The notes beneath the pieces are model-generated. The model made no database searches. It worked only from the letters and a program-made list of their open reading frames with translations, and had not been told where the DNA came from. From a virus, in the IMG/VR virus record IMGVR_UViG_3300025168_000773, positions 1 to 21,903 of that record: a stretch of 21,903 nucleotides of DNA; one strand, written 5' to 3'. Of this stretch, positions 2,525-21,779 are shown in pieces (within the stretch, counting starts at the first letter, position 1; every line of letters begins with the position of its first letter). Position numbers and translations under genes: made by a program.

Positions 2525-5407
2525 TTAAGATATTGTTACTATTTTGTCTAGGTCTAATTCAAAAACTATATCTTCAACGCCCCAGTTTATTATTTCTAAT
2601 TCAGCTGTTATTGTTATTGTTTCTGCGCCAGTGCTTGTAATTGCTGTGTTATATATTTTAATATTTGAAGAATATAAATCTTTGTTTATTGTGTTGCTCC
2701 AATCAGAACCCCTACTTGTATTGTCTGCAACTGTACCTAACCCATCATAAGGAATTGATGCTGAGAAAAAAGGTGTTCTAGCTGCTGTAAATGTTTTTGT
2801 AGTTTCTGAATCTAACAAGTAAGTTAATTTAAACTTATTTTTAATGTTATGAGATTTTAATAACTTTATACCGTCTTTCTTTGCCTTACCTGAGTACACT
2901 GTGTCATACTCCTGTCTAATAGAAGCGTGCCCTGGTAGGTCTTGGGCATTTATTTTATATAGATGCGATGTTGCAGATATTCTTATTGTTACGGTAGGAT
3001 CTGTATATTGATTTATAGTATAGGTAGGTATTGTTGTTGGTATAGCGGAGCTAAAAGACGTTTCAGGTGTTACTGTTATATCGTAAGAAGTTGATCTTTT
3101 AAACTCAACTGCTAAATTATCAGCAATAATTATAGCTTGGTTTAAAACTAAAGTTGTTGAATTAGTAACAGAAGCTACCTTTAGGCTAGTAACAGCTGGC
3201 ATTGTAGCGTAAAACAGTTGATCTCCAGTTTCAACTCCTTCGGTTTTATCTAAAACTAAAGTTTTTGAAGCCACCGTTATGGCGCCATTTACTAAAGTTT
3301 TTAATGTAACTGGTAGGCTAGGAAACCTTTGATCAAAAGAGTATTTACCATTTTTACCAGTGACACTACTTATTGCGCCTATACTTTTACCTCCACTGCC
3401 AATTAAATTGTGGTTTAAGACTGTTCTACTTAATATAGATTTACCATAAGGGTCTCGAGATTGAAATTTTATTTCAACACCACTTTTAAATCCAGTTACT
3501 TTTTCTGAACGTAAAACTTGTTGTAAGGTTAAAATAAACGGTACACCCACGCTTCCTGTGAGTGTTATTTTTCTACGCTCACCTATTCTATTTAGACAAT
3601 CAGAACCATACTTTACGTGATTTATTATAGAAGATAGGGTAACTATAGATTGTTGCTTGTAGTTTAAGTTTACTTTTAAACCATCGATAATAGAGGTTGC
3701 TACATTATTTTTATACTTAACGTTTAATATATATGCTGTGACTTTGTTGTTTGTTTTCTCTACACTTTTAACTGACATTTTTATAATACCGTTAGTATTA
3801 ATCTTGTTTGCTCTTAGAACTGAATCTCGTGTCAAAGAAGGTGCATTTAAGAAATACTTATTAGTATCTGCATCTATTCTAATAGTAGCTATTACTGTAG
3901 ACTTAGATTCAGGTACTGTACCTGATATAGAATATACAGTTGCTTCATTTGTAAAACCACCTTTTTCAATAATTGATGTTACACTTGTTGTATTAGATGT
4001 TCCATATATACCAGTGTTTGTTGATCCGGTTACAGTAACCGTACCGCCATTACTACTAGGGTTTACGATATCAATATAAGAATTAATATCAATTGCTGGC
4101 ATACCACCCTGTCCTTGTATTATTGGAGTAGCTCTACCAGCAAAAGCCATCAAAGCGCTTAAACTTTCAAAAGATCCATCAACAATAAAATCATCTTGGT
4201 TGGTGTAGGTAACAACAACTCTATTATCTGCAGAATAAGGAGTTGATGTATTAGAAAATACTAGAGGTATTTGCACGAAGGCAGCGTTGCCTCCCCCTTG
4301 ATTCCATTGAGTTATATCATCTAGTGAATCAGGGTTTTGAAGTTGGTTGTTTTGACTATAAAAAATATAAGGCTGAACACCATAACCACTCCACTGAGCC
4401 GGATTAGATGACGGAAAGTCACCATTAAAAAGAGGATTAAAAAAAGAATTATTTGCACCAAATTGATTACTATTTATACCTTCAGGTTGAGCAATTGCTG
4501 AAGGAGTAATATATGGTTGGTTGCTTGATACACTTGATATATAGCCCATTGTTACCTGGGCAAAATCACTAGCAGAAACAACATAACCAGGTAGTGGTTT
4601 TATTGTCCAAAATACAGAAGGGGCAATAGTACCCTGGTTAATAGAAGTTATAGTATCAGCTGGTTGACCTAAAGATATAGTGTTTGACTTAATTTGAAAA
4701 TAACTTCCAAGAAATCCAATTGATGGTTGTTCAGCTGCACTTTCAGGAAAAACACCAACGTTATTAGAATAAGTTGTCTGTGAAGAGCCGTTTACACCAT
4801 AAGTGCTTTCTAGTATTATGTTTTGTATATTTTCGTCACCAGCTGAAAACGTGTAACCACTGATTACTCCGGTTTGATTTACAGCTGCGTCACCACTATT
4901 AGTTGGTATTCTAGTAGAGTTCGCTACTGTATCACCTACATACCCAGCGTCAAGTAAGTTATAACTAACAACAGTACCAACTTGCGTGGAAAGTATTGGT
5001 TTAGCCTCTCCATCAATATCTATATTAATAGTAATATTGTTGCTTGGCATAACAAAACCGTCTACTAAATAAACATCTACCTTAATTGTGTTACCCGTCT
5101 CACCTGGACCAATAGAATCACCAAAACGAACTTCATTTACTTCGCTAGATAAATTTGCGTTAGTATTATAAACGTACACCCAATCACCTCCAGGAGATGT
5201 AGATGTGTTTGGTAGTGCATAGTTGTATTGAACTCCACCTATACTAAAATCAATAGCAGAAACAGTAAAACCGACATCAGGTGTTATTACTAGCTGAACA
5301 GTCTGAGCAGTTAGTTGTCCGGTTCCAGTTCCAGCTCCAGTTTCAAAGTTGTCGCCAACTGTTTCGGTTGCTTGATATTGAGATACGCTATAATTTAATT
5401 CAGGCAT
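2525..5407 (-). CDS. Putative tail appendage / fibre protein (960 aa, beta-rich)
   Basis: This is a long, Ser/Thr/Asn/Val-rich protein with almost no charged helices, as expected for stacked beta-sandwich domains of a tail spike or fibre. Two related segments stand out: residues 39-56 (LVITPDVGFTVSAIDFSI) and 265-282 (FWTIKPLPGYVVSASDF), sharing the pattern I-x-P-x-x-G-[FY]-x-V-S-A-x-D-F. They suggest at least two copies of one domain in the N-terminal third. The middle carries Gly/Thr-rich strands. The C-terminal third is more basic and contains TPETSFSSAIPTTIPTYTI, and the last 60 residues again look beta-rich. There is no catalytic signature of a depolymerase. It lies 11 bases downstream of the giant hub gene and 9 bases upstream of a small structural gene, so attachment to the tail hub is a reasonable inference. 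Host-receptor binding is possible but unproven. Confidence 0.85.
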   Translation of the reverse strand: MPELNYSVSQYQATETVGDNFETGAGTGTGQLTAQTVQLVITPDVGFTVSAIDFSIGGVQYNYALPNTSTSPGGDWVYVYNTNANLSSEVNEVRFGDSIGPGETGNTIKVDVYLVDGFVMPSNNITINIDIDGEAKPILSTQVGTVVSYNLLDAGYVGDTVANSTRIPTNSGDAAVNQTGVISGYTFSAGDENIQNIILESTYGVNGSSQTTYSNNVGVFPESAAEQPSIGFLGSYFQIKSNTISLGQPADTITSINQGTIAPSVFWTIKPLPGYVVSASDFAQVTMGYISSVSSNQPYITPSAIAQPEGINSNQFGANNSFFNPLFNGDFPSSNPAQWSGYGVQPYIFYSQNNQLQNPDSLDDITQWNQGGGNAAFVQIPLVFSNTSTPYSADNRVVVTYTNQDDFIVDGSFESLSALMAFAGRATPIIQGQGGMPAIDINSYIDIVNPSSNGGTVTVTGSTNTGIYGTSNTTSVTSIIEKGGFTNEATVYSISGTVPESKSTVIATIRIDADTNKYFLNAPSLTRDSVLRANKINTNGIIKMSVKSVEKTNNKVTAYILNVKYKNNVATSIIDGLKVNLNYKQQSIVTLSSIINHVKYGSDCLNRIGERRKITLTGSVGVPFILTLQQVLRSEKVTGFKSGVEIKFQSRDPYGKSILSRTVLNHNLIGSGGKSIGAISSVTGKNGKYSFDQRFPSLPVTLKTLVNGAITVASKTLVLDKTEGVETGDQLFYATMPAVTSLKVASVTNSTTLVLNQAIIIADNLAVEFKRSTSYDITVTPETSFSSAIPTTIPTYTINQYTDPTVTIRISATSHLYKINAQDLPGHASIRQEYDTVYSGKAKKDGIKLLKSHNIKNKFKLTYLLDSETTKTFTAARTPFFSASIPYDGLGTVADNTSRGSDWSNTINKDLYSSNIKIYNTAITSTGAETITITAELEIINWGVEDIVFELDLDKIVTIS

Positions 5408-5418
5408 GCTATATTGTT

Positions 5419-8400
5419 TTAATTATCAGGATCATTTTGTACGGTTAAAGTAAAGTCAGTTTGTGGTGGAACGTTAGATGACGTTGGTATACCTATACCT
5501 TGAACTGTAAATTCACTAGAATCTATATTTCCAGGTATTTCATTTTCAGGTTGTAATACACCTGTGATTTTATTAAACCATTTGTTTTCTTTATTTATAA
5601 ACTCTGGCACATGAGCGCTTTGCCCAGGATTTGTTATTTGATTAAACTGATCAGTTTCAAAAGATTCAACATACCACCCATGTTTACCTACTAGGTTATA
5701 ATACTCACCATCCGTATAAACAATTCCAGGATTTAAACCAGATGGGTCTGTTCCATTCCAAAATTGATTTACTCTACTTTGAGTTCCCTCATAATTCATT
5801 GTTTGAAAAGACTTTATTATTCCTGGCGTATCATTAAACAAAACAGTTAAAGTTGAATCAGCTGCAGTCTCTGCTCCATAGAACTTATTTCTATTTGTAT
5901 CTTCACGGTTCGCATCTAGTATTTCAACATAATGCTGGTGTATATCACTTGCTTGAGTAGTTATATATTTTCCTCCAACTGATTCACCTGATTGAGGAAT
6001 GAATGATTTAAAACTAACCCAGCCTTTACTAGCTTCGTTAAATGATATAGTTCTGTTTAAAATGTTAGTTTGTTCAGCTTGTGTAAATTGTGTAAAGTCA
6101 GTAGGTATATGTATATTGTATCCAAGCGTAACATTATACTCACCGTTAACTTTATCAAAAGTACCTAAAATGCTAGGTGCTGTTTTTAAATTTTGTCTAA
6201 ACCAAGACTTCATACCAACATTGGATATTGGAGTTAATCCATCTCCTGATAACCTAAGAACAGCTCCTCTTTGCTTGTCAGTAAAATACATTCTATATTG
6301 GTCGGTAGCTAAAGATTCAGGATTCTTAGATATACCATATTCTCCAGCAAACGGCATAGCTTCACCAAGAACTCTATTTGTTGCAATAAGTTGAGGTTTT
6401 CCATCAGCATTAAACACTGCGTCTTTATTAGATAGTACTCTTAAAACTTTATCTTCTGTGAAAACAACAACATCTCTATCTCTAGTTTTTAAAGCTTGAA
6501 TAGAACCGTAAGATGGATTTAAATCTTTAGTTATTTTTTCAGCCATATTAAACTCGTTAAAATCGTTTACTCCAGAAGTAGAATTATAAATACCGGAATA
6601 TATCATACCACTTTTTTTAGTCTCTTCTTTATATCCAGAAACAGTTGTTGAAACTTTAACACCATTATCTATCATTGACGCATTGTAGTCATCTCTTATT
6701 CTATCAGACTCAACTGCATTTCCAAAAGAATAGCAATTGAACCAAGATAATTTAACAGGATACTTCCAAGCGTTAGTATCAATAGCGTAATAACCAGTTG
6801 CCGTTGAACTAGGGTTACCATCAACATCAACAAAACCAAGAACCTTAGTGGTTGTCTCTAGTCCATCGTTATGTACAAAGGTAATAAAGTTGTCAACAAC
6901 AATATCTTCATTGTTAGCGTAAAAACCACCTACTATGTCAAAATGTTTTATATTAACCGCGGCTCCAGTGTTAGTAAATATTATATTAGCCATATGGAAG
7001 TCTTCTTTAGTAGCTGCACCTGGAGTTGTTATGTCATCAGATGTACCTAGTATTCCATCTTCACCTTCGGATATAACATCGACCGATGTATCAGATAAAT
7101 CTACTATAGATAGGTTACCGTTATCATCTTCCGCTTTGACAATTATTTTGCAATTAAATGGAGCAAATGTAGACCAGTTACTTTGACTTACAACCATTGG
7201 TATAGCTTGAGTTGCTTCGTAGTACAGATCTAATCCAATGTCTTCTTTTGGTTCTGTTTCCCATACCGCACCATCTGTCGATATATCTTCGTCTCCTTCT
7301 CCTGTGCTTATAAATTCTACCATCTCCATTACAAAGAATCCATTACCATCGTGCCTGGTTAGTGCCCTTGGGTCAAATACTTCTGGTGCTATACCTTGGT
7401 TTGTTAATTCTCCAGTATCTGGATCTAATCTTCTAAACTCTATTCTAATACCAGCTCTTTTTGCTGATGAAACCGTGTTGTTATCATTACTAAACGCGCC
7501 GTAAGCACTTATACCAAACTGCAAGAAACCTTCACCTGAGCCAGAGCCTATTGCCGGCGGATTACCAATAGATAATCCATTATTAGATGCCATGTTAGGG
7601 ATTTGAGCTCCACCTACACCATTAGGCGCTACAACATCGTTCATAGATTGATTTGAATTTCTAGCATTAACAATAGCGTTATCTACAATAAAACCACCAG
7701 CTCCAGATAACAGTCTGTTCTGTGGGTTTCCAAAAGCATCATCAATATCAATGTACAAGTCTTGGTCATCAGTATTAGAATGTACCTCTGTCCAAGGTAA
7801 ATCTCTTAGTGAGCCATGAAAACCGACTCCATAACCAGTGTCATCACCAACTGGGTTATTAAAATCCCCCCAATAACCATTCTGATCATTAAAGTACTCG
7901 GAGTTGGTGTTAACATCTATATTACCTCCACCTCCCCCTTGTGTTCTACCATGATTTATTCCATTTTGCGTAGACTGTATACCCAAAACAGCTTCACCAC
8001 TTGCGTTTTGATTTATTATTCTATATACATGAGGCATTCCGTTGTTTGTTGTGTCATCTTTAAATTGGAAATGGTTTCCTGGTATACCCATGGCATTCTT
8101 AAATGCAATTGCCATTAGATTAGAAGGATTATCTCCATTACCACCAAACACACTAGCACCAACAGGATTTGCTGTTCTATCTTGATAACCAAAACACATT
8201 CTTCCTAATGTTCCAGCATCTGCTCCACCTTGATCTAGAGCTGTTGGTTTGTAAGCGAAGCTCGCTCTTCCACCATCAATATTAGTATCATTTACACTGT
8301 GAAATTCATATCCATCTACATTTGGAGTACTAGTAGGGGGAGAGTATTTTCTAGCTCTAGCACCATCTAAAAAAACGTACATTAAATCTGCTTGTGGTCT

Positions 8401-11400
8401 ATTTTCATACAGTACACCATCGTCGATCCATATGTTATTATATTCAACCCAGCTATCCCAAAAACCCTTAGTTGCACTTGATCTGTTATATATAACGTCA
8501 CCTGTTTGATTGAGAGGATTATTTTTTGCAACACTTGGCACAAAGTGAACACCTAGACCAAAAGCGTTTAGTAGACCTGCTTTAGTAAAACCTTCTGGTG
8601 TTTCTGTTAGTCCAAACTCATTAATAAAATTACCTACACCGTCATCACCAAAAGTAAAACCGCCGTTAACATATTGATTAGCACCTGAGTCTGGATAAAT
8701 GATACCATCCACCGTAACCTGCTGATAGTCTCCAAAAACATATGGATTAGTTCCAGAAAATTCTCCTTCAAAAGGAGATGGATGTTTTTCTACGGTATCT
8801 ATATAACTTACTAAAAATGTATCGGTAACTTCTTTTTCAGTTACCGCCATAGATTGCTTCATTATATTCTCTTGAATAATAACGTCTTTTTCTATTAAGG
8901 CGAAAAATCTACCGTCAAATTCTGGTTTGTTTTTAGTAACCTCTTGTTTGAACTCAAGAAAGTAAGTTAAGTCTCCAGCAAATGGAGGATCTATACCTGA
9001 GTCCGTAAACGAAGTTAGCATATTTGCAGAAGATCCTATCTGATCACCCCAATTTATTTTTCCACCAATACTCCCACCATCCTCACCACCAGCGGAATCT
9101 TGAGACCAATGAGTAACTATCGTCCATTTGTCAGATCGTCGTTCGCCTAGTATAACGGCTGGATCACCCACTTGTATTCTACCAACAACTCTAAATTTTA
9201 AATCACCTAAGTTATCATAATGGCCTAAAAAATTATTCCAACCAGATGGTTCTATTTCTATTGAAGTTTCAGCTGTTAGAAAATTTGGGGAGTCTGTCTC
9301 TGGGTCAAAAGCGATACCTTGGGAAGAAACGCTATCACTATTTAATTTAACTAGACCCATGTTTTTAGTAGTTATTTTTATAAAATCTGGGGCTTCGTTT
9401 TCTATTGCTATTATTTTGTATCTAGCTGATTCTTCTACTGGAGTTTGATTACCATGACCATTTTTTAATATGATATATGTTTCTTCATCTAACTTGTTTC
9501 TATCAGCAGAAGGAAACGATAACCAAATGTTACCATCTTCTGCGTTATACCAACGATCTAATACTAGATTATAGTATTCATTGGTTGTTTCTTTAACGTA
9601 GTATTTAACGTAATCCATCCACGTTAGATCTGGTTCTTCATCACTAATCATTTCTCCAGGTTTAACCCAGTCTTGTTTTAAAGTAAATCTATTAGCATAT
9701 TTTGCTAGTTGTTTTTCAACAATTATATCACCGGTCAATGTATCAAAACCGCCTGCTCCATCAGAGATAGAATAACCAGTTGATATAACGGGTGTCTCTC
9801 TACCGTATTCATCGCCAATAACTAATCCAAATTTATAATTTCTAATAGACTTTATAGATTTTTTTGGAGCTGCAAGTGTTGCAGTGTTTTCACTAGATAT
9901 TGATTGTATTAAGCTTGGAGAATGAGTTAAGTTGTATCCTTGTACGTAGTTTCCGTATATTAATCTATTCGCTGACATCTCTTGAGCCTTTGCGTATCTA
10001 GGTACGTTATCCCAAGCTCTTAGCATTTGATTTGAAGGTAAAACTTGATGGATCATTTCAGACGTTATGTTTAACTGACCTGTCAACAAAAGTGTATTAA
10101 TATTTACGCCATCATAAGTATACAACTCCCACTCTGCGTCCTTTTCTCTTTCAATAGTCTTTACTGTGTACACATTAGGCGAGTCAGTAGTTTTATATAA
10201 AACGTCAACAGCAATAACATCGTGTGGCCTATTATCAATCCAAGGAACAAAATCTTTTATAACAAGTTCACGAACAGTATTTATCATACCTAGGTTGTAA
10301 CCTTTTTTTACTTCGTAATCGTAAGGAGCAGGTAAAAACGCTAGCTCTGACCAAGGTGAAAAACTTGAATACTCTCCGTCTTCATATCTATACCTATAAC
10401 CAAATCTAACAAACTTTAATTCAAACAAAGGTTTCGTTAATTCAACAGACATTGACCACTCTAAACTAAAATCAAACACTTGTTCGTTTTTTGAAATTAT
10501 TTGTATTTTTATAGACTCAGTAGTTACTGCAACTTCTTCATTGTTGGTATCAATATATGAAATAAAAGTTGCTTTTATAATACCAGGTACATCACCATCA
10601 GCAGTCCCATTGTCTGTAAACTTTATTATATCTCCAGATCTAAAAAGAGTAGGAGCAAGTGGATTGTTAAGGTTGCCATCAGTTATAATTATTACATCTC
10701 CATTCACAACACCACTTAAGTCAGCCGTTGTTACTTCAGCTACTGATATTGAAGAATCGCTCCTAGAGTCCATATGTAGTGTTGGTGCCATTCTAGGCGC
10801 TTTTCTTAAGACAGTTATGTGTTCTTCTTTTAAATCTGAGTTAATAGCAAACTCTAAATCAGAAACAGTAACAAGATCAGCACCTGGTAAAGCAAGTGGA
10901 TCTTCAACCATTAATCTAGTGTGAGTATTAAAGTTATCTGTTCCAGCTTTACACCTTGTTATATTTATTTTTTTAGGCTCACTATGGTTGTCTGTCCAAA
11001 ACAATAAGTCGTCTATAATATTTATACCTGTTATTCTAATAGTTTTGTTAAATTTTAATAATCTATCTTCTTCTGGTATTTCAAATTTTAAGGCAACGCA
11101 ATTAGTAAACGTCCAAGTAGCAGGCTCAGCTTGACTAAACAGTGTTATAGTATCACCAGATATACTGCTTATTATAGCACCTGGAATTAAATTATTATCA
11201 TCTGCATCAAGAGCTGTAACTACCATACCAACTCTATATAACGAGTCGGCACCTGTGATATTAAAAGAAACATCATCGGTAAAAGTTGGACTACCAGCGT
11301 TAGCATACGTAGATGTAACTGCGAATCTATCAACCACAACAGGAGTTGTTGCTCCGTTGATGTGCTGCTCAACTATGTTATCATAGTAAATTGTTTGTGA

Positions 11401-11730
11401 AGTTATATCGCTTGAACTAGTTGGAACATCAGTACTACAAGCGAAAAAGAAATATGCTACATCATTTTTTTCGTAAGAAATGCTAGCAACAGTATACATT
11501 AAATCATTTGAACCAGGTTGAATAGAACTACCCATTGATGCTGTACCCATTATATTTTGTACGGTACCAGCATCACCAAGACCCACATTTTCACCACTAT
11601 CACCAACCTGTCCATCAGTTGTTCTAACTTGGATATTCATTGCATCTCTATATTCACCGTTTGGAACAAGTCTTTCGTCAAAATCTTTGTTCATCTTACC
11701 AGCAGTAAAAGTGTGTTTAATTTCTGCCAT
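5419..11730 (-). CDS. Giant tail hub / DNA-stabilisation-type protein (2103 aa)
   Basis: The N-terminus (residues 4-32) carries HTFTAGKMNKDFDERLVP and then NGEYRDAMNIQV, a signature I associate with the tail hub or packaged-DNA stabilisation proteins (P22 gp10-like/T7 gp12-like beta-propeller) of crAss-like and marine podoviruses. Further conserved-looking blocks are LLFWTDNHSEPKKINITRC (about 240-258), VKYYVKETTNEYYNL (about 705-720), GLTPISNVGMKSWF (about 1840) and SFNEASKGWVSFKSFIPQSG (about 1895-1915). Known relatives are much shorter (P22 gp10 about 470 residues, T7 gp12 about 790). The extra length comes largely from an Asn/Gly/Asp-rich central part at about 1000-1550. It includes a run of five glycines near 1266 and a DGILGTSDD segment near 1560 that might bind calcium. 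The gene starts 4 bases after the connector gene stop, so it is probably translationally coupled. The central expansion could be a surface-exposed or host-contact domain. Confidence 0.9.
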   Translation of the reverse strand: MAEIKHTFTAGKMNKDFDERLVPNGEYRDAMNIQVRTTDGQVGDSGENVGLGDAGTVQNIMGTASMGSSIQPGSNDLMYTVASISYEKNDVAYFFFACSTDVPTSSSDITSQTIYYDNIVEQHINGATTPVVVDRFAVTSTYANAGSPTFTDDVSFNITGADSLYRVGMVVTALDADDNNLIPGAIISSISGDTITLFSQAEPATWTFTNCVALKFEIPEEDRLLKFNKTIRITGINIIDDLLFWTDNHSEPKKINITRCKAGTDNFNTHTRLMVEDPLALPGADLVTVSDLEFAINSDLKEEHITVLRKAPRMAPTLHMDSRSDSSISVAEVTTADLSGVVNGDVIIITDGNLNNPLAPTLFRSGDIIKFTDNGTADGDVPGIIKATFISYIDTNNEEVAVTTESIKIQIISKNEQVFDFSLEWSMSVELTKPLFELKFVRFGYRYRYEDGEYSSFSPWSELAFLPAPYDYEVKKGYNLGMINTVRELVIKDFVPWIDNRPHDVIAVDVLYKTTDSPNVYTVKTIEREKDAEWELYTYDGVNINTLLLTGQLNITSEMIHQVLPSNQMLRAWDNVPRYAKAQEMSANRLIYGNYVQGYNLTHSPSLIQSISSENTATLAAPKKSIKSIRNYKFGLVIGDEYGRETPVISTGYSISDGAGGFDTLTGDIIVEKQLAKYANRFTLKQDWVKPGEMISDEEPDLTWMDYVKYYVKETTNEYYNLVLDRWYNAEDGNIWLSFPSADRNKLDEETYIILKNGHGNQTPVEESARYKIIAIENEAPDFIKITTKNMGLVKLNSDSVSSQGIAFDPETDSPNFLTAETSIEIEPSGWNNFLGHYDNLGDLKFRVVGRIQVGDPAVILGERRSDKWTIVTHWSQDSAGGEDGGSIGGKINWGDQIGSSANMLTSFTDSGIDPPFAGDLTYFLEFKQEVTKNKPEFDGRFFALIEKDVIIQENIMKQSMAVTEKEVTDTFLVSYIDTVEKHPSPFEGEFSGTNPYVFGDYQQVTVDGIIYPDSGANQYVNGGFTFGDDGVGNFINEFGLTETPEGFTKAGLLNAFGLGVHFVPSVAKNNPLNQTGDVIYNRSSATKGFWDSWVEYNNIWIDDGVLYENRPQADLMYVFLDGARARKYSPPTSTPNVDGYEFHSVNDTNIDGGRASFAYKPTALDQGGADAGTLGRMCFGYQDRTANPVGASVFGGNGDNPSNLMAIAFKNAMGIPGNHFQFKDDTTNNGMPHVYRIINQNASGEAVLGIQSTQNGINHGRTQGGGGGNIDVNTNSEYFNDQNGYWGDFNNPVGDDTGYGVGFHGSLRDLPWTEVHSNTDDQDLYIDIDDAFGNPQNRLLSGAGGFIVDNAIVNARNSNQSMNDVVAPNGVGGAQIPNMASNNGLSIGNPPAIGSGSGEGFLQFGISAYGAFSNDNNTVSSAKRAGIRIEFRRLDPDTGELTNQGIAPEVFDPRALTRHDGNGFFVMEMVEFISTGEGDEDISTDGAVWETEPKEDIGLDLYYEATQAIPMVVSQSNWSTFAPFNCKIIVKAEDDNGNLSIVDLSDTSVDVISEGEDGILGTSDDITTPGAATKEDFHMANIIFTNTGAAVNIKHFDIVGGFYANNEDIVVDNFITFVHNDGLETTTKVLGFVDVDGNPSSTATGYYAIDTNAWKYPVKLSWFNCYSFGNAVESDRIRDDYNASMIDNGVKVSTTVSGYKEETKKSGMIYSGIYNSTSGVNDFNEFNMAEKITKDLNPSYGSIQALKTRDRDVVVFTEDKVLRVLSNKDAVFNADGKPQLIATNRVLGEAMPFAGEYGISKNPESLATDQYRMYFTDKQRGAVLRLSGDGLTPISNVGMKSWFRQNLKTAPSILGTFDKVNGEYNVTLGYNIHIPTDFTQFTQAEQTNILNRTISFNEASKGWVSFKSFIPQSGESVGGKYITTQASDIHQHYVEILDANREDTNRNKFYGAETAADSTLTVLFNDTPGIIKSFQTMNYEGTQSRVNQFWNGTDPSGLNPGIVYTDGEYYNLVGKHGWYVESFETDQFNQITNPGQSAHVPEFINKENKWFNKITGVLQPENEIPGNIDSSEFTVQGIGIPTSSNVPPQTDFTLTVQNDPDN

Positions 11731-13516: not shown

Positions 13517-14350
13517 TTAATTTAATCGTTTCTCAATATTGTTATATATCTCCATTCCTTCATCAGTTTTAAACCAATGCGCTAATGCTGTATATGGATG
13601 CTCATCAAAAGGAACTGTCATTAGTTTTCTATTATTAGAACCCCAATTAAAAGTTCTTTGATCTGACGATAGTTTAATAATACCTAGTTCAGTAGCTTTA
13701 ATACCAAAATTCCTAAGCACTACATTTTCGTCATTAACCAACTCTAAGAATAGCTCTGGGTTTCTTTTAGCGTATAGTAACAAATCTCTTCTAAGCTCCT
13801 TAGAATCCATCGTAGATACAGCTGATCCCTTTTCTACTCTCATGATAGCTTCGCCTAAATCTATATCTACATCTTTAGCAGCATTCAAGGCTTCTATTTC
13901 CATTTCCAACCAAGCTATTTGACTTTTTGCTTTTGCAATTGGTTTGTCTTCACGGAACATAACATCTCTATCTGGATGATATAATGATAATAATTTTTGA
14001 AGTACAGTTTTTTCTTTAGGAACCATTAAAAAGCCAGTTCTAAAAACAATATGCTCTAATCTTTGATCTCCTTTCATTTCATCAACAAATGTTGTTCTTT
14101 GATTTGAACAATATTTTAATTCTCTTTCGTAACCTTTCTCTTCATCAAACCAATGTATGTTTGCAGATCTAATCATTCTTGATAAAGGTTTTTTGCCGCC
14201 TTTTAAAAAATACATTCTATCTTTTATTTCCCATTCATCTTTTTTAGGTTTAGCTTCTACTTTAGGAGCTTTAACCACAGGTTGTTCCATAACAACCGTT
14301 TCTTCTTGAAGTGTTTCAACTTCAATTTTTGTTTCTTTTTTCTTTGCCAT
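13517..14350 (-). CDS. Conserved virion-region protein of unknown function (277 aa)
   Basis: The N-terminal 40 residues are a Lys/Glu/Val/Pro-rich disordered tail. The body starts with EWEIKDRMYFLKGGKKPLS and continues with IHWFDEEKGYERELKYC, then VPKEKTVLQKLLSLYHP (about 110-127). Next is a helical pair at about 138-160 (SQIAWLEMEIEALNAAKDVD) and a helical C-terminal half ending in a Tyr/Trp-containing segment. From memory the LKG-x-x-x-PLS start and VP-x-x-x-x-VLQ-x-L-L-x-x-H-P block recur in proteins next to capsid genes of Bacteroidota phages, with no assigned function. Placement between two terminators, directly after the capsid gene, suggests a virion component (head decoration or completion) made at a level different from capsid. 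No catalytic motif or membrane segment is visible. Confidence 0.87.
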   Translation of the reverse strand: MAKKKETKIEVETLQEETVVMEQPVVKAPKVEAKPKKDEWEIKDRMYFLKGGKKPLSRMIRSANIHWFDEEKGYERELKYCSNQRTTFVDEMKGDQRLEHIVFRTGFLMVPKEKTVLQKLLSLYHPDRDVMFREDKPIAKAKSQIAWLEMEIEALNAAKDVDIDLGEAIMRVEKGSAVSTMDSKELRRDLLLYAKRNPELFLELVNDENVVLRNFGIKATELGIIKLSSDQRTFNWGSNNRKLMTVPFDEHPYTALAHWFKTDEGMEIYNNIEKRLN

Positions 14351-14373
14351 AATATAATATAATAAAAATTAAT

Positions 14374-14407
14374 AAAAATAAAGAGGCTAGGGTTTCCCCT
14401 AACCTCT
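14374..14407 (-). terminator. Strong intrinsic terminator after the major capsid gene, GAAA loop
   Basis: On the minus strand AGAGGTTAGGG and CCCTAGCCTCT form an 11-bp stem (10 Watson-Crick pairs plus one G-U) closed by a GAAA tetraloop, followed by TTATTTTTATT. The arms are 14397-14407 and 14382-14392. It starts 16 bases after the capsid stop codon. The stable loop, GC-rich stem in AT-rich DNA and T-rich run are textbook features. It probably limits readthrough from the highly expressed capsid gene. Confidence 0.92.
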
Positions 14408-14422
14408 CTAAAGTGATTGTGC

Positions 14423-15940
14423 TTACTTCATTAACATGAAATTGTTAGCACCTTGTGTAACTAAACATCTTTCTGATAGATAATGTACTTCCATCGCGTC
14501 TAATGCAGATGTAGTAGCTCCAACAGAACCAGTAACCCAAGTTTTCATCTTTCTGTTATCCGTAGCAGAAGCTCTGTAACGAACGTGTAAGAAAGGTCTT
14601 TTTAGATTTTTTCCTAAAGACTGATCATAAACTGAAGTAGTTCCAGCTGGTATCATAACACCACGGATAGCTGCACTACCCGCTCTATCGTTAATACCAC
14701 CTCTTGTAGCTTTATCGTTTAAGTATCTAAAGTCAGATTTATAGAAGTCATAAGAACCTCGTCTAAATCCTGAGAAACCTAAGTTTAATGCCATATCTTC
14801 ATCGTTGTCAAATACTCCATAAGAAGTACCACCAGCTCCGTAAGAATTCATTGAAGCTAGCATGTCGTCTACAGCAAGAGATGTTGCTCTATTTATAAAC
14901 ATCATGTTTTCTTCAATAGCACCTTGCTTATCAAACTCAGCTAAAATAGCATCAAATTCAGCTAAATCAGTAGCAGCATTAACACCTGTAACACCAGAAG
15001 TTACATTACCTCTATTTTCAATAGCAGCAAATAAACCCTCAGTACCATGTCCACCAGGTCCAGAATCATCTCCATCAGTTGATGCAAAGAAACCATCGGC
15101 AGCACCTATGATAGAATTAGCAAGGGTTTTTTCAGCTTCAAGCATTGCCATTTCTAAGTAATCAGTAAATCTAGCTCTAGTATCACCTTTAGCTTTCAAA
15201 TACCATAAGTAACCGTTTTGCCCTTCTTCACCAGTAACTTCAACCCAACCAATTTGAGACGTATCAGATCCAGAGATCTCATAGTAATCTTTCATTATAA
15301 TTGGTTTGTTGCTAAAAGATTTAAAAGTAGGTTTTATAGCTGTTCTACTATCAGAACCTGTCGCTCCTGTAATAGCACTGTAAGCTTGACCCTTGTTATA
15401 CTCAGACCCTACAACTAATAAAGTTGAAGTACCTAAAGTAGTAACAGCTGTTGCGTGATCAGCTAAAGTAGCTTTATCATAAGCTTCAACAGAAACAATA
15501 GCTGTAGCTGGAGTTTCTGTAACTAAACACTTAGTAACGATACCAGCACTTGCAATAAGTACTATATCATTAACTCTAATACCGTGAGATGCTGGAGTGA
15601 ATCCATCACCTGATACATTGCCGTCGATATCAGCTAATACTGTAAATGTACCACCACCATCACCTGCTACCACTACAGTACCAGTATAAGATAAGTGTAA
15701 TCTTGATTGTTCAGACCAAACAACCTGATCAGATTGCATTGCCTCTTCTGCGCCAACTTTAGCTAAAAAACCTGAAATTGTTCTTTGTCCGAACACTTCA
15801 GCTTCTTTTTCCATTAAGTCTGGCAGGTATTGTTGGGACCAATCATTAGTCCCGCTTGTAAAATCGATGTAGTTTGAGTTTAGTGTTTGCTGCTGTGGTG
15901 CCGCAACACTGTTCAAGTCACCGCCTGCTGTAATTGCCAT
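14423..15940 (-). CDS. Major capsid protein (505 aa, HK97-like fold expected)
   Basis: Order and sequence fit a crAss-like/Bacteroidota-phage major capsid protein. There is an N-terminal arm at about 20-80 and a beta-rich, Gly/Thr/Val-rich insertion at about 85-180. A conserved-looking core block (GYLWYLKAKGDTRARFTDYL, residues 243-262) leads into the long spine-type helix to about 280. A C-terminal block at 443-503 contains KNLKRPFLHVRYR, MEVHYLSERCLVTQGANN and FML. The C-terminal ERCL-x-x-QGA-x-NF ending is the clearest family sign I recognise. The usual length in this group is near 500 residues, so it looks complete. It follows the scaffold-like gene by 24 bases and is followed at once by a strong terminator, as expected for the most abundant virion protein. 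The fold is inferred; a structure prediction would settle it. Confidence 0.93.
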   Translation of the reverse strand: MAITAGGDLNSVAAPQQQTLNSNYIDFTSGTNDWSQQYLPDLMEKEAEVFGQRTISGFLAKVGAEEAMQSDQVVWSEQSRLHLSYTGTVVVAGDGGGTFTVLADIDGNVSGDGFTPASHGIRVNDIVLIASAGIVTKCLVTETPATAIVSVEAYDKATLADHATAVTTLGTSTLLVVGSEYNKGQAYSAITGATGSDSRTAIKPTFKSFSNKPIIMKDYYEISGSDTSQIGWVEVTGEEGQNGYLWYLKAKGDTRARFTDYLEMAMLEAEKTLANSIIGAADGFFASTDGDDSGPGGHGTEGLFAAIENRGNVTSGVTGVNAATDLAEFDAILAEFDKQGAIEENMMFINRATSLAVDDMLASMNSYGAGGTSYGVFDNDEDMALNLGFSGFRRGSYDFYKSDFRYLNDKATRGGINDRAGSAAIRGVMIPAGTTSVYDQSLGKNLKRPFLHVRYRASATDNRKMKTWVTGSVGATTSALDAMEVHYLSERCLVTQGANNFMLMK

Positions 15941-17148: not shown

Positions 17149-19548
17149 TTAGAGTCCGAATTTATCTAAGTTCGATCCTCCTGTAATTATATCATTACCT
17201 GACGATTCAAACTTTTTAACAGATTCACTCTCTTTTCTTTTGTCTATCATATTGTTTTGGTGAGCAGCTTGTCTATCAACTCTACCATCTTTTCTATCTT
17301 CTCTAACTGTTTCCATTTGATTTGCACTTTCTCTCTTCATTCCTTCTAATTGAGAGTTTAATTCAAATTCAAATTTCATTAACTCTTTTTTAACTGCTAC
17401 TTCTTCTTGTAGATATTGAATTTTTAGTTGGTTTTTAGTTTGCTCTAATTGTGCTTGTGATTGAGTTATCGCTTGATTCTTTTGTATCTCGCCTTGTGCT
17501 GCAGCTTGTTGAGCTTGTTGATTTGCTTGAGATTGAGCTTGTATATTCTCTTGCTGCATTTTTTGATCTCTCTGCATTTTCTTTTTTCTCTTAACCTTAA
17601 GAAGTTGATTTGCTAATTTAACATTTCGAGTACCCCTAAGATCAATAGCATCATCTAAGTCAATTGACTGCTGAGCAAGTGCCGCTTGGATATTATTTTC
17701 TAGTATTTGTTTTTCTTCTTCATCTGGCATTAGTTCTATAAATATACCAAAATCGTAAAGATGCAGATCTTTCATTTCGTCTAGTGTAGCAACGTTATGA
17801 GCACCAATAGCTTGTATAAAAGCGTTTCTTGTTGGTGAGTACTCTACTATATCTGCTATTCTCAAGGATAAGCACTCAGCTGTTTCAACTGTTAGATACA
17901 GCATTGACTGTAGTATATGTCTAGTTGCTGTGTTTGAATTTGCCGCTGCTAGTTTCTGTATACCAACTAACGCATTTTTATCAGGTGTACTAGCATCTCT
18001 AGCTTCGTTTAATCCAGTTGTATCTCTTATCATTTGTAAATAATAGTTGTACGTTTGGATCAGTGTTTGCATTTTGTTACCACCACTACCGCTTTGTATT
18101 TGTTGTATTGGTATTTTACCAGGATTTTGATCTCCATCAGAAGTGAAACTTCTACCAATAACAGAACCCGTTTGGAAAAACATGTTTAAAGCTTCTTGTG
18201 GACTATAGTTTGTTCCATTACCTAAATCAATCTCAGCTAATCCATCAGCATCAAGATATACACCGTCTGGAACCATTCTTGACATCACTTGTTGTAACTT
18301 CAAATGTGTCAATTGAATCATATCAGCAAAACCTGTTATTCTACTAACTATAGATTCTATTCTACCTTTGTACATTCTTGGTGCAACGATTTGATAACTC
18401 ATTTTCACTGAACTAAAATCAGACTTAGTTCTCATCATATTATCAGACATTTTCCATTTTAGCAGCTTATTAGAACCTATTAAATAAACACCTTCGTACA
18501 TGCATTCAACAACTCTTTCTAATTTACCAAAGTTACCTTCTTTGTTTTCTGGTGGATTAAATGTATCATCTTTTTGTATTACCTTGTCATTACCTGTACT
18601 AGTTGTCTTAACCTTATAAACATCGTTTGAGTGGGTTTTATAATTAAAATACAAAACCTCTACTTCATTAGTATCTCCGTTATTACTCCTAGAATAACTA
18701 GAACCACTTTGTGTTATTTCTTTTATTTCTGATTCTGATAGTTCTGTAAATTGCTTAACTAGTTCATTTATTGGCACTTGTTTTACTTCGCCAACGTAAT
18801 ATATATCTTCAAAGTAAGGAGACTCAGTATATGAGTAAACTAAATTAGCTGGATCAACATACTTAACTTTAGCGCCATCACTCCAATCAAAGGTTGTTTT
18901 CGTGGCTGCAATACCAAGTACCGCTAAATCGTACAAACAACGTCTTCTAACTAGTTCATAGTCGCTACCTTCCATCAAAACATTTATAGCCTGCTCCTCT
19001 GCTATTTCTACAGCTTGCTTGTATGTGAGTTGCATATGTAGAGCTAATTCTTCTTCGTTATCCGGCAATGTTTCTTTATCGTTCTCGTAAAGATCCATGT
19101 TGAATTGTTGCTTAGCTAGGTTATTAAACTCCTTAGAACGCATGTCTCTCAACATAGACTCCATGTACTCAGTTCTCTTACTAACACCATAAGCGTCTTG
19201 CGAAAAACAGTTTATTTCAAAAGTTCTTTGAGCCATTCCATTAACTAATATGTCTACAAACTTAGGTATTATAGGAACAGGTTTCCAATCTAAGTTTAAA
19301 TAAGACAGGTCACCATTTATAGATAATTCGTTTTTATATTTTTGTATAGACTGTTCTCCTCTAGCGTATAATCTCAATTGATGGTAGTTACCCATGTTGC
19401 CTTTATACTTGTGCTGTGAAGTGTTTGAATTTGTAGCTCCAAACCACTCTTGCTTTATAGCTCTGGCTACTTCTAGTCCATATTTTTGGGACATCTTCTC
19501 TTGATCGCTAACCGCTTGTGATGGAAAATTTATAACAGACTCTGTCAT
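17149..19548 (-). CDS. Portal protein (799 aa)
   Basis: The portal is the dodecameric ring at one capsid vertex through which DNA is pumped. Recognisable blocks are KPVPIIPKFVDILVNGMAQR (residues 89-108), CLYDLAVLGIAATKTTFDW (about 205-225), SRMVPDGVYLDADGLAEIDL (about 420) and RDTTGLNEARDAST (about 514-527), followed by long helices. The last 150 residues are Gln/Lys/Glu-rich and almost certainly a long coiled coil, comparable to the C-terminal helical barrel of P22-type portals reaching into the capsid. About 800 residues is normal for crAss-like portals. The start codon overlaps the terminase stop (ATGA, four bases), indicating translational coupling. The leader has A at -3 but no Shine-Dalgarno. 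Confidence 0.93.
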   Translation of the reverse strand: MTESVINFPSQAVSDQEKMSQKYGLEVARAIKQEWFGATNSNTSQHKYKGNMGNYHQLRLYARGEQSIQKYKNELSINGDLSYLNLDWKPVPIIPKFVDILVNGMAQRTFEINCFSQDAYGVSKRTEYMESMLRDMRSKEFNNLAKQQFNMDLYENDKETLPDNEEELALHMQLTYKQAVEIAEEQAINVLMEGSDYELVRRRCLYDLAVLGIAATKTTFDWSDGAKVKYVDPANLVYSYTESPYFEDIYYVGEVKQVPINELVKQFTELSESEIKEITQSGSSYSRSNNGDTNEVEVLYFNYKTHSNDVYKVKTTSTGNDKVIQKDDTFNPPENKEGNFGKLERVVECMYEGVYLIGSNKLLKWKMSDNMMRTKSDFSSVKMSYQIVAPRMYKGRIESIVSRITGFADMIQLTHLKLQQVMSRMVPDGVYLDADGLAEIDLGNGTNYSPQEALNMFFQTGSVIGRSFTSDGDQNPGKIPIQQIQSGSGGNKMQTLIQTYNYYLQMIRDTTGLNEARDASTPDKNALVGIQKLAAANSNTATRHILQSMLYLTVETAECLSLRIADIVEYSPTRNAFIQAIGAHNVATLDEMKDLHLYDFGIFIELMPDEEEKQILENNIQAALAQQSIDLDDAIDLRGTRNVKLANQLLKVKRKKKMQRDQKMQQENIQAQSQANQQAQQAAAQGEIQKNQAITQSQAQLEQTKNQLKIQYLQEEVAVKKELMKFEFELNSQLEGMKRESANQMETVREDRKDGRVDRQAAHQNNMIDKRKESESVKKFESSGNDIITGGSNLDKFGL

Positions 19549-21779
19549 GCTTTGTTTTTAATTAATTCTGAGGAAAATCCCTTATTATTATATCTTGATA
19601 CACTTAGGTTTAATGGTTCTTTTTTTACATCTCTATTTGGTTTATATAAGTGTCTATTGCAAGCCATTATAGCTAAACCAGAACTTATTGAGGCATCATG
19701 CTTTGTTCTTTTGTTTATATCAAATCTAGACCAGTCGTTTAATGTTTCACCAAAATACATAGCACCATAAGTGCCGTCTTGTAGTAATCCAACATGATCG
19801 TTGATATACATTTCAATTGCAGCAGCATGTGCTTGTTTTATGTCTTCACTAGAGTTTGGCATTCCACCAACTTCTTTTTCTGCAACTGATAATTTGTTCC
19901 AAACTTTATCTGGTCTATTCATACTAAACCCCCTGTAACCTCTTCTTCTTAAGTAGTACAATAACCTTGGTTTATTATTCTCTGCTAGTATTGGCATTCC
20001 ATAAAACACTAAGGACATTAGAACGTCTTCAAAAAATATTTCAGCGGTTTGAGGTCTAGCTATATATTCTAAAAAGAAAGTGTTAGCTGGAGCATCTTCC
20101 ATTGAAAACTTAGTTAATCCGTGCAAAGCTCCTTTAGAACCTATTTTATCTACTGTTCCTGATATATCGTACGAGTCACATCCAAACGCTCCCATGTGCT
20201 CATTACCTGGATACTTGACTCCGTTTTTTAATACAACGTTGTTTTGCATTTGACCACTTGGAACCCAACTAACCTTAAATCTACCTTTTGGATCTGGATT
20301 AAAAGTAACTTGAGTATCCTTAACTCCATTTGTCCACTGAAAATTACCAGGTGTCAACACTGATGAGTTTCTGTTTCCTTCATTATAATCTATTTGCTCG
20401 TATATCTTTACTAAGTTAAATAAACTATTTTTAGTTTCATCTCTAAACGCATGTTCTTCTGTTCTTGGGAATTGACGATAGAATTCATTTAAAGCATCTT
20501 GGTCATCTCTTAAACCATCCGCTTCGTTATCCCAGTGATCTATTACACCATAATCTATTTCTACTCCGTGTGGATCAGATGTTTGTTTTTCAGGAGTATT
20601 AAAAACGGGTGCTCCATATCCATCAATGAATCCTTCGTAATTCCATTCCATAGGAATAAACAAAGAATATAATCCCGACTTAGTCTGTCCATTTCTATTT
20701 CTTTTTGTAACATCTGAATTGTAATATAAGTTTTTAAAATTCTCACCTCCTTTGTCTAGAGCATTGCTTGTTGACCCCATCATGCATTTACCTATAATTC
20801 TACTACCTAATCGTAAACAAGTTTTTGTAACTCTCCAGTTATTTTTTATATTATCAGGTCTCTCCCACTTACCACTTTCATCATGAACTAATAAAGATAG
20901 CTTTTCACCATCATAACTATTGTCTCCTGTGTTTTTCCAATCAATAGTTGTATCTAGCCCCTCCATATCATCTTGCTCCTCTCGTTCCCTCATTTTTCTA
21001 CGAGTAAACTTTTTAGCTGGTATTCTATACGCTAACTCAGATTTTGGACGATCCATACCATCTTGTATTGGTTTGAAAAAGAATGGATAGTTTAAACTAA
21101 TTGGTACAACTTTGTCTGTAAACATCTTTTTAGCATCACCACCTGTTTTAGATAGTATACCAAATCTACTGTCACTTGCTAGTGTTGCTTGATTAACTGT
21201 CTCAGCTGAACTCATGAAAGAAAAACCAGATCGTCTGTTTTTTAGATAGCACATACCGTAGCATCTTCTATCTGATTTACAAGCTTCCCAAAATATAAAG
21301 AATAATCTATTTGCATCTCTAAAATCAGGAGCACCAACGTCAATCTTACTCCATTGTAAGTACATATAATGTGTACCTGTTATATATGTTGGTTCACCAT
21401 TGTTCATAAACCAAAAGCCCTCTTCTCTTCTTCTAAACTCTTCGTTTATATATTCGTAGTGTTTTTCTTTAAAGTCTTCTGGATACGTCTCCCAGTCAAA
21501 CACTGTTTTGATATTTTTAAAATCTGAATTAGGTTCGAACCTTTTCCATTTTTGCTCTTCCTGTACTTTACTACAAGAGTATATGTCTTTAGGTAATTTT
21601 GGTAAAGCTATTTGAAAACCTTGGATTTCAAGTACTTTATCAATTTGCCCGGTTTTAGAAATAACAACAATATCATTTTCTTTATTATAACCATATTTCC
21701 ACTTCTTAGACTTGTTTAGCCTTTTTAAAGTGTTAGACCTTATTGGGTCTACTATTTTGTATAAAGACTGACTATACAT
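19545..21779 (-). CDS. terL: Terminase large subunit, ATPase-nuclease (744 aa)
   Basis: This is the packaging motor that translocates and cuts phage DNA. The ATPase half has a variant P-loop at about 178-190 (YLKNRRSGFSFMS; the usual GK[ST] lysine is replaced). A clear Walker B with catalytic Glu follows at 293-301 (KLSLLVHDE), then a coupling motif at 335-339 (GSTSN). The RNase H-like nuclease half shows a first acidic residue in GCDSYD (D535), a second in PILAENN (E600), and a last in TKHDASISSGLA (D695). All are in the expected order and spacing. The length is typical of crAss-like and related large terminases. The start overlaps the upstream stop by one base (TAATG) and the end overlaps the portal start, so the three genes are probably co-translated. 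An AGAAGG lies about 16 bases upstream, too far to act as a normal ribosome-binding site. Confidence 0.95.
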   Translation of the reverse strand: MYSQSLYKIVDPIRSNTLKRLNKSKKWKYGYNKENDIVVISKTGQIDKVLEIQGFQIALPKLPKDIYSCSKVQEEQKWKRFEPNSDFKNIKTVFDWETYPEDFKEKHYEYINEEFRRREEGFWFMNNGEPTYITGTHYMYLQWSKIDVGAPDFRDANRLFFIFWEACKSDRRCYGMCYLKNRRSGFSFMSSAETVNQATLASDSRFGILSKTGGDAKKMFTDKVVPISLNYPFFFKPIQDGMDRPKSELAYRIPAKKFTRRKMREREEQDDMEGLDTTIDWKNTGDNSYDGEKLSLLVHDESGKWERPDNIKNNWRVTKTCLRLGSRIIGKCMMGSTSNALDKGGENFKNLYYNSDVTKRNRNGQTKSGLYSLFIPMEWNYEGFIDGYGAPVFNTPEKQTSDPHGVEIDYGVIDHWDNEADGLRDDQDALNEFYRQFPRTEEHAFRDETKNSLFNLVKIYEQIDYNEGNRNSSVLTPGNFQWTNGVKDTQVTFNPDPKGRFKVSWVPSGQMQNNVVLKNGVKYPGNEHMGAFGCDSYDISGTVDKIGSKGALHGLTKFSMEDAPANTFFLEYIARPQTAEIFFEDVLMSLVFYGMPILAENNKPRLLYYLRRRGYRGFSMNRPDKVWNKLSVAEKEVGGMPNSSEDIKQAHAAAIEMYINDHVGLLQDGTYGAMYFGETLNDWSRFDINKRTKHDASISSGLAIMACNRHLYKPNRDVKKEPLNLSVSRYNNKGFSSELIKNKA

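Follow-up and report, generated by a model that had tools for sequence, protein, structure and literature searches.

A probable crAss-type tail muzzle whose variable tip is unusually large

Why should a phage tail-tip protein run to more than two thousand residues, and what does the surplus do? The question is raised by IMG/VR record IMGVR_UViG_3300025168_000773, a 21.9-kb virus contig analyzed here over its whole length (21,903 nucleotides; hereafter the window), in which positions 5419-11730 form a single uninterrupted open reading frame (ORF) of 2103 amino acids (aa) on the minus strand. A preliminary description made from the sequence had given this length correctly, though no strand; the plus-strand reading of the same interval contains 122 in-frame stops and was rejected. 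It had taken the product for a tail hub of the T7/P22 type with a possible receptor-binding or enzymatic module built into its center. The protein is instead of a known kind, a crass-type muzzle, with a tip that is unusually large and variable; in all probability it is the tail-tip nozzle (muzzle) of a crAss-related phage resembling Cellulophaga phage phi38:1, the enlarged center being its distal part.

Family and layout of the protein

The family assignment is carried by profile matches to the whole protein and to its two ends. The protein matches PHROG 14478 ("virion structural protein") with E 5.8e-109, and a direct search of the record with Pfam PF25731 (crAss_MUZ) gives 44.1 bits against a cut-off of 27, over model positions 1040-1219 only, with matches in none of 14 control genomes. 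In hmmscan at E <= 1, which pre-filters, PF25731 is absent from the list for the window protein and PF25729 (crAss_MUZ_C) reaches 20.4 bits, below its cut-off of 27. Among relatives, PF25731 exceeds its cut-off in L009 (57.9 bits) and L065, and PF25729 in L033 (45.4 bits) and phi38:1 gp097 (67.9 bits). Both ends are homologous by profile to phicrAss001 gp44, a muzzle of 1371 aa (PDB 7qok, 7qol, 8ckb): residues 1-263 align with gp44 1-154 (hhalign, E 8e-14 and 5e-13 in two alignments) and residues 1724-2066 with gp44 1047-1333 (E 5.3e-16). Between the aligned ends gp44 has 892 residues and the window protein 1460, and 568 of the 732 surplus residues lie there. The gp44 gene follows other structural genes, as does the window muzzle gene. 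The nearest isolate, phi38:1 (filed under Pervagoviridae, genus Callevirus, with no order named in its record), shares the gene order; its gp097 is 1324 aa long, 779 aa shorter than the window protein, to which it is 28.8% identical over 42% of the query in three pieces, a central match not being shown separately. A profile search of the PDB with alignment A1 returned two weak matches only (E 0.33 and 0.34), to unrelated proteins.

The T7/P22 hub with an insert was accordingly replaced by a crass muzzle, on the strength of the gp44 profile alignments and the crAss_MUZ match. The end signatures named in the preliminary description are present (MNKDFDERLVPNGEYRDAMN at residue 13, SFNEASKGWVSFKSF at residue 1896) and the ends are conserved, but they are those of a muzzle; its broader expectation of a tail-tip structural protein fits well, "stabilization protein" being the annotation of gp44 and many of its relatives. 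That the protein is more than double the length of its counterparts is true only against what we take to be the lengths of the T7 gp12 nozzle and P22 gp10 hub, the proper counterparts being gp44 and gp097. According to the portions of the gp44 report drawn on here (PMC10172136), the ring-joining domain and propeller of gp44 are similar to the T7 nozzle, whereas its IG and crass domains are distinct from T7; the stretch between the ends comprises IG1, IG2 and a crass domain inserted in IG2, and differences in muzzle length arise where the crass and IG2 domains have taken up insertions. The expansion described here would sit in the very domains that set gp44 apart from T7. The parts of the window protein are as follows.

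5419..11730, minus strand: muzzle-family protein, whole ORF, 2103 aa (PHROG 14478, PF25731)
10942..11730, minus strand: residues 1-263, putative ring-joining part and first propeller blades (hhalign to gp44; domain names from the same portions of PMC10172136)
8866..10941, minus strand: residues 264-955, putative framework of the IG/crass segment (position between the aligned ends, conservation)
7300..8865, minus strand: residues 956-1477, expanded variable central segment, 522 aa (partly ordered model, no fold match)
7531..8673, minus strand: residues 1020-1400, hypervariable among relatives (identity drop in five of nine clusters)
7474..7938, minus strand: residues 1265-1419, Asn/Gly/Asp-rich, with GGGGG and no confident predicted structure (prediction confidence, composition)
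7186..7299, minus strand: residues 1478-1515, conserved anchor WETEPKED..YYEA (alignment of relatives)
6766..7185, minus strand: residues 1516-1655, second variable segment, 139 aa here (lengths among 44 relatives)
5533..6561, minus strand: residues 1724-2066, putative C-terminal propeller and ring-joining part (hhalign to gp44; crAss_MUZ match at 5962-6561)

Within the framework, residues 436-800 are conserved and 801-927 variable. An AlphaFold2 model of residues 560-1725 (43 alignment rows; mean predicted local distance difference test score, pLDDT, 62.9; predicted template modeling score, pTM, 0.48) is well predicted over most of 575-1000 and parts of 1420-1675. Among 985 chains compared by VIA, gp44 (7qok_A) ranked first at Z 7.0, with 242 aligned residues and a root-mean-square deviation of 5.0 (model 11-1125 to gp44 287-1008; next chain Z 5.8), a Z below 8 being weak alone and 7.0 falling in a range for which the tool warns of a common arrangement. 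In the BFVD viral library the top match was a muzzle-C-terminal protein of Virus NIOZ-UU157 (E 2.7e-31). Because this match to gp44 is bracketed by homologous ends, an IG2/crass region is the best reading of the middle, and the models point there rather than to ordinary propeller blades; a layout of IG1, IG2 and crass fold between propeller blades would fit by position. A model of residues 925-1530 alone (41 rows; mean pLDDT 58.1, pTM 0.63) has 200 of 606 residues at pLDDT >= 70 and a 155-residue stretch, 1265-1419 (model 341-495), below 50. It returned nothing from Foldseek at E <= 0.001 and nothing at Z >= 2 from VIA, the latter against 231 chains only, where absence does not exclude a family. 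From these fold searches the center appears not to be propeller-like and to be without a known enzyme fold.

The Asn/Gly/Asp-richness noted in the preliminary description is confirmed for residues 1264-1419 (N 14.7%, G 17.3%, D 9.6%, vs. 6.8, 6.0 and 7.9% in residues 1-800). Since the center exceeds the framework in these three residues in 100 of 103 proteins, the composition is a property of the family and not chance. The five-glycine run is indeed at residue 1265, whereas DGILGTSDD, proposed as a possible calcium loop, lies at residue 1558, just outside the 1000-1550 interval assigned to it. Of 107 relatives, four carry the glycine run and none a DGx(1-3)GTxDD motif; neither looks functional, both are idiosyncratic, and the calcium loop is not supported. 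A CxxC motif occurs in the center of 32 of 105 proteins, extended to CxxC...C.R in 22 (e.g., L003, L005, L007, L120, L136, L182, L201), and is absent from the window protein; it is possibly a metal or disulfide clamp.

Variation of the center among relatives

Muzzle-bearing loci are abundant, one query returning at least 593 stretches, and 77 loci of relatives were compared. In 56 of them the ORF is apparently complete, at 1339-3326 aa; with two further scans there are 107 distinct complete ORFs of 1441-3326 aa (median 2122), the two sets having been filtered differently. Conservation along the protein is likewise far from uniform, in keeping with the central expansion that the preliminary description had proposed. 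The segment equivalent to residues 956-1477 measures 195-618 aa in 42 of 44 closer relatives; in the other two, L042 and L052, it is 8 aa, with anchors poorly aligned there. The equivalent of residues 1516-1655 spans 1-311 aa in the 44. Seven compact relatives combine 1 aa in this second segment with 195-258 aa in the first. The conserved block at query residue 1659 starts at about residue 920-970 in the 11 most distant rows and at 1037-1136 in the seven compact ones, from which the small form is probably ancestral; on a portal-plus-scaffold tree (47 rows, 43 labeled) the compact and expanded states need two changes. L018, whose muzzle is the same as that of L049, was dropped from the length comparison onward; L042 and L052 were left out of alignment A4, and alignment A5 has 41 rows, L009 and ten others of the 52 prepared having been left out.

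The center of 51 of the 104 relatives is similar to that of the window protein (about 25% identity), which argues for one domain changing fast rather than for unrelated modules. The central expansion of the preliminary description stood and does vary, but as a fast-evolving family domain, not as a module of detectable outside origin. An imported domain was also sought directly and rejected, with no match in viral contigs, Pfam, PDB sequences or folds: the central segment alone has no Pfam family and no PDB sequence match, and against viral contigs eight stretches fit a pattern, none of them a confirmed relative.

The variation is sharpest between close kin. In pairs with nearly identical portals the framework is nearly identical and residues 1020-1400 collapse; it is important to note that these limits were set after the conservation profile had been inspected, so that the pair tests are not blind. 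Ten clusters have a framework identity of at least 0.90, and nine were compared (L127/L128, at >= 0.998, was left out). In five of the nine, amino acid identity of the center is 0.54-0.62 vs. 0.92-0.98 in the flanks. In L119/L131 and L044/L026 the second segment, 1516-1655, drops instead.

Synonymous change follows a similar course. Differences at 4-fold sites in center and flank are 0.29/0.11, 0.39/0.11, 0.33/0.26, 0.31/0.15 and 0.34/0.14 in the five variable clusters, a 2- to 3.6-fold excess in four of them. Across the nine clusters synonymous change is higher in the center in seven and lower in L119/L131 and L035/L037, the pooled counts being 141/492 for the center vs. 788/3702 for the flanks. 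In a codon comparison of six pairs, five have a synonymous divergence (dS) of 0.72-1.32 in residues 1020-1400 and of 0.05-0.56 at the ends (segments 1-262, 1656-1840, 1841-2080), and the sixth, L026/L044, has 0.62-0.95 throughout. At 4-fold sites restricted to identical, well-aligned residues the six pairs show 0.34/0.14, 0.31/0.26, 0.39/0.11, 0.34/0.15, 0.29/0.11 and 0.41/0.38. Higher synonymous divergence in the center suggests local allele exchange, and the simplest reading is that center alleles have been swapped locally from unsampled relatives.

Whole-muzzle swapping relative to the portal was rejected: in 40 proteins (excluding L042, L052 and L009) the muzzle segments correlate with portal and scaffold (Spearman 0.54-0.82). 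The N-terminal segment is the exception, showing no correlation (-0.16 to 0.17), for which gaps may be responsible. One clear whole-gene difference appears among the 12 pairs shown, that of L019 from L023 and L020 (portal identity 0.98 and 0.91): between L019 and L023 identity is 98% in the portal and 96% in the scaffold (parts compared) but only 38% in the homologue of R_12640, and the muzzles differ throughout, an apparent whole-module replacement.

Insertion of sequence as a source of muzzle length variation is already in print; what is added here is the strong variability between near-identical phages. We recognized no report of local muzzle hypervariability within one lineage in the openly licensed literature searched, as far as its text was covered.

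Possible roles of the enlarged center

The mechanism we propose is as follows. The distal part of the muzzle (residues 956-1477 and 1516-1655) would have been enlarged in this lineage through loop-rich insertions, and its variable center would evolve much faster than the remainder, apparently by local allele exchange between related phages, which is supported by the synonymous divergence and was not directly observed. By analogy of layout, six muzzle copies would surround the exit with a gate loop as in gp44; the variable tip may contact a varying host-surface structure, and such contact would then trigger gate opening. The authors of the gp44 study propose that the distal crass domain contacts the cell surface and place the gate loop in propeller blade 4 (PMC10172136, same portions), and a review, in the part drawn on here, repeats that docking of the particle may be a function of the crass and IG domains (PMC10136315). 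Given a gp44-like layout, the enlarged variable tip is the likely contact surface. We tentatively suggest that the enlarged crass domain is a hypervariable, allele-exchanged receptor-binding surface, with recognition and gate opening in one polypeptide, a serious candidate though one we would stop short of calling probable. As far as could be seen, the center is neither an enzyme nor an imported fiber domain, and Pfam, PDB sequence, Foldseek and VIA searches detected no receptor-binding fold in it. Where otherwise near-identical phages differ sharply at the tip, the residues concerned are of interest for the question, unsettled to our knowledge, of how a muzzle of the crass type detects the cell and opens.

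Several points weigh against the overall reading of a crass-type muzzle with an enlarged, allele-exchanged tip. On the structural side, the modeled region starts at residue 560, with residues 264-559 outside it; Foldseek found no PDB match for the 560-1725 model at E <= 0.001; the VIA score carries the reservations given above; and profile alignment of the middle with gp44 gave no match, the best hint pairing residues 621-651 with 364-394 at E 0.006 and a probability of 6.6%. With regard to variation, the set contains no near-identical partner of the window protein (its closest portal-plus-scaffold identity being 76%), and hypervariability, seen in its relatives, would extend to it by homology; in four of the nine clusters the center drops by less than 0.15; the rise in dS begins at residue 600 in L004/L022 and at residue 800 in L032/L049 and so is not confined to the center; a rotation control equaled or exceeded the observed value in 20, 446, 350, 67, 58 and 601 of 2000 cases, three of them clear and three not; and a search for donor alleles among 103 proteins found no best center partner more than two points closer in the center than in the framework. 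Recombination also reaches beyond the muzzle, the major capsid protein (MCP) disagreeing with the portal as well.

Recognition could also reside in one or more separate downstream genes (window 2525-5407), the muzzle center merely co-varying, an alternative we consider doubtful but very much alive and one that blunts the earlier claim that the module is carried in the hub rather than on a separate fiber. The directly downstream gene varies too: its size differs between relatives, and L002 and L003, which have identical portals over the part compared, share 61% identity in its first part. The review cited above regards crassvirus tail fibers and spikes as likely receptor-binding proteins (PMC10136315, same part). 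Recognition by the downstream gene and by the muzzle are not mutually exclusive, however, and L032 and L049 are 92% identical in the downstream gene but 59% in the muzzle center (aligned codons). The center could, on the other hand, be under weak constraint, a surface-exposed, loop-rich region that drifts, gaining and losing residues with no recognition role. Its low-confidence, Asn/Gly/Asp-rich stretch at 1265-1419, a ratio of nonsynonymous to synonymous divergence in 1020-1400 that is below 1 (0.11-0.40 across six pairs, most of which have a lower ratio at the ends), and the sufficiency of the short first segment in compact relatives are all compatible with this, but drift alone would not raise synonymous divergence as seen in four of the five variable clusters, and conserved anchors and an ordered core are kept throughout the center; we regard it as rather unlikely.

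An enzymatic or carbohydrate-binding module beyond the recognition of the tools used is improbable. The residues predicted at pLDDT >= 70 without a PDB match, and the CxxC motifs in relatives, could be taken to hint at one, but the segment has no Pfam or PDB sequence match, alignment A5 shows by eye no conserved catalytic-looking motif, and the segment shrinks to 195-258 aa in some relatives; the enzymatic module of the preliminary description likewise found no counterpart in Pfam, PDB sequence or fold searches. Least probable by far is that the variation is generated by a diversity-generating retroelement (DGR). DGRs are linked to tail genes in some crass-like phages, according to the parts of two sources drawn on here (PMC10136315, PMC12386605), but no reverse transcriptase (PF00078) was found in the 14 records of the compared pairs, all possibly fragments, and the variation extends over more than 1 kb, with insertions and deletions among the changes.

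Gene neighborhood and other muzzle architectures

All large genes of the window have the orientation of the muzzle ORF, in the order TerL, portal, a 385-aa ORF, MCP, ORFs of 277, 254 and 300 aa and muzzle, then ORFs of 960, 118, 213 and 360 aa, MCP and scaffold being named by gene position.

19545-21779, minus strand: terminase large subunit (TerL)
17149-19548, minus strand: portal
14423-15940, minus strand: MCP-position protein
13517-15940: MCP-position gene and its 277-aa neighbor

This order parallels phi38:1 gp090-gp097 and is shared by most of the 77 relatives, L012 and L014 being among the exceptions. Spearman correlations with the portal are 0.53 for MCP, 0.48 for its neighbor and 0.85 for the scaffold. 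MCP and the 277-aa neighbor agree with each other (0.79), which suggests that they have been exchanged as a capsid cassette; the portal-plus-scaffold tree and a second one, both quick with long branches, also differ. The 960-aa ORF (2525-5407, minus strand) has no Pfam or PHROG match and corresponds to a pair of genes in L003, L004 and L019, an apparent fusion.

Query residues ~1848-1891 are a hot spot of insertion and splitting. L051 and L054 have 1350 and 1377 aa here, compared with 104 in the query, and L090 gp75/gp74 is grouped with the same site. In eight loci (L059, L062, L065, L071, L073, L074, L075, L077) a separate downstream gene of 246-266 aa carries the C-terminal piece, and the muzzle ORF extends into a tail of 275-632 aa (six measured) without a BLAST match to the query, which would amount to a two-gene muzzle; in L059 and L065, the two tested, the split piece belongs to PHROG 18548 ("unknown function"), and this PHROG also matches the query at 1892-1986. 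Elsewhere the muzzle C-terminus carries long stretches of additional sequence: cysteine-rich GCxxxxAxNYxxxAxxDDGSC-like repeats occur in L035 and L037, with related ones in L016 and short ones in L021, whereas L029 has Asp-rich DGDGID-type repeats and L039 a Pfam Big_9 Ig domain. Such C-terminal repeats are common in Bacteroidota surface proteins.

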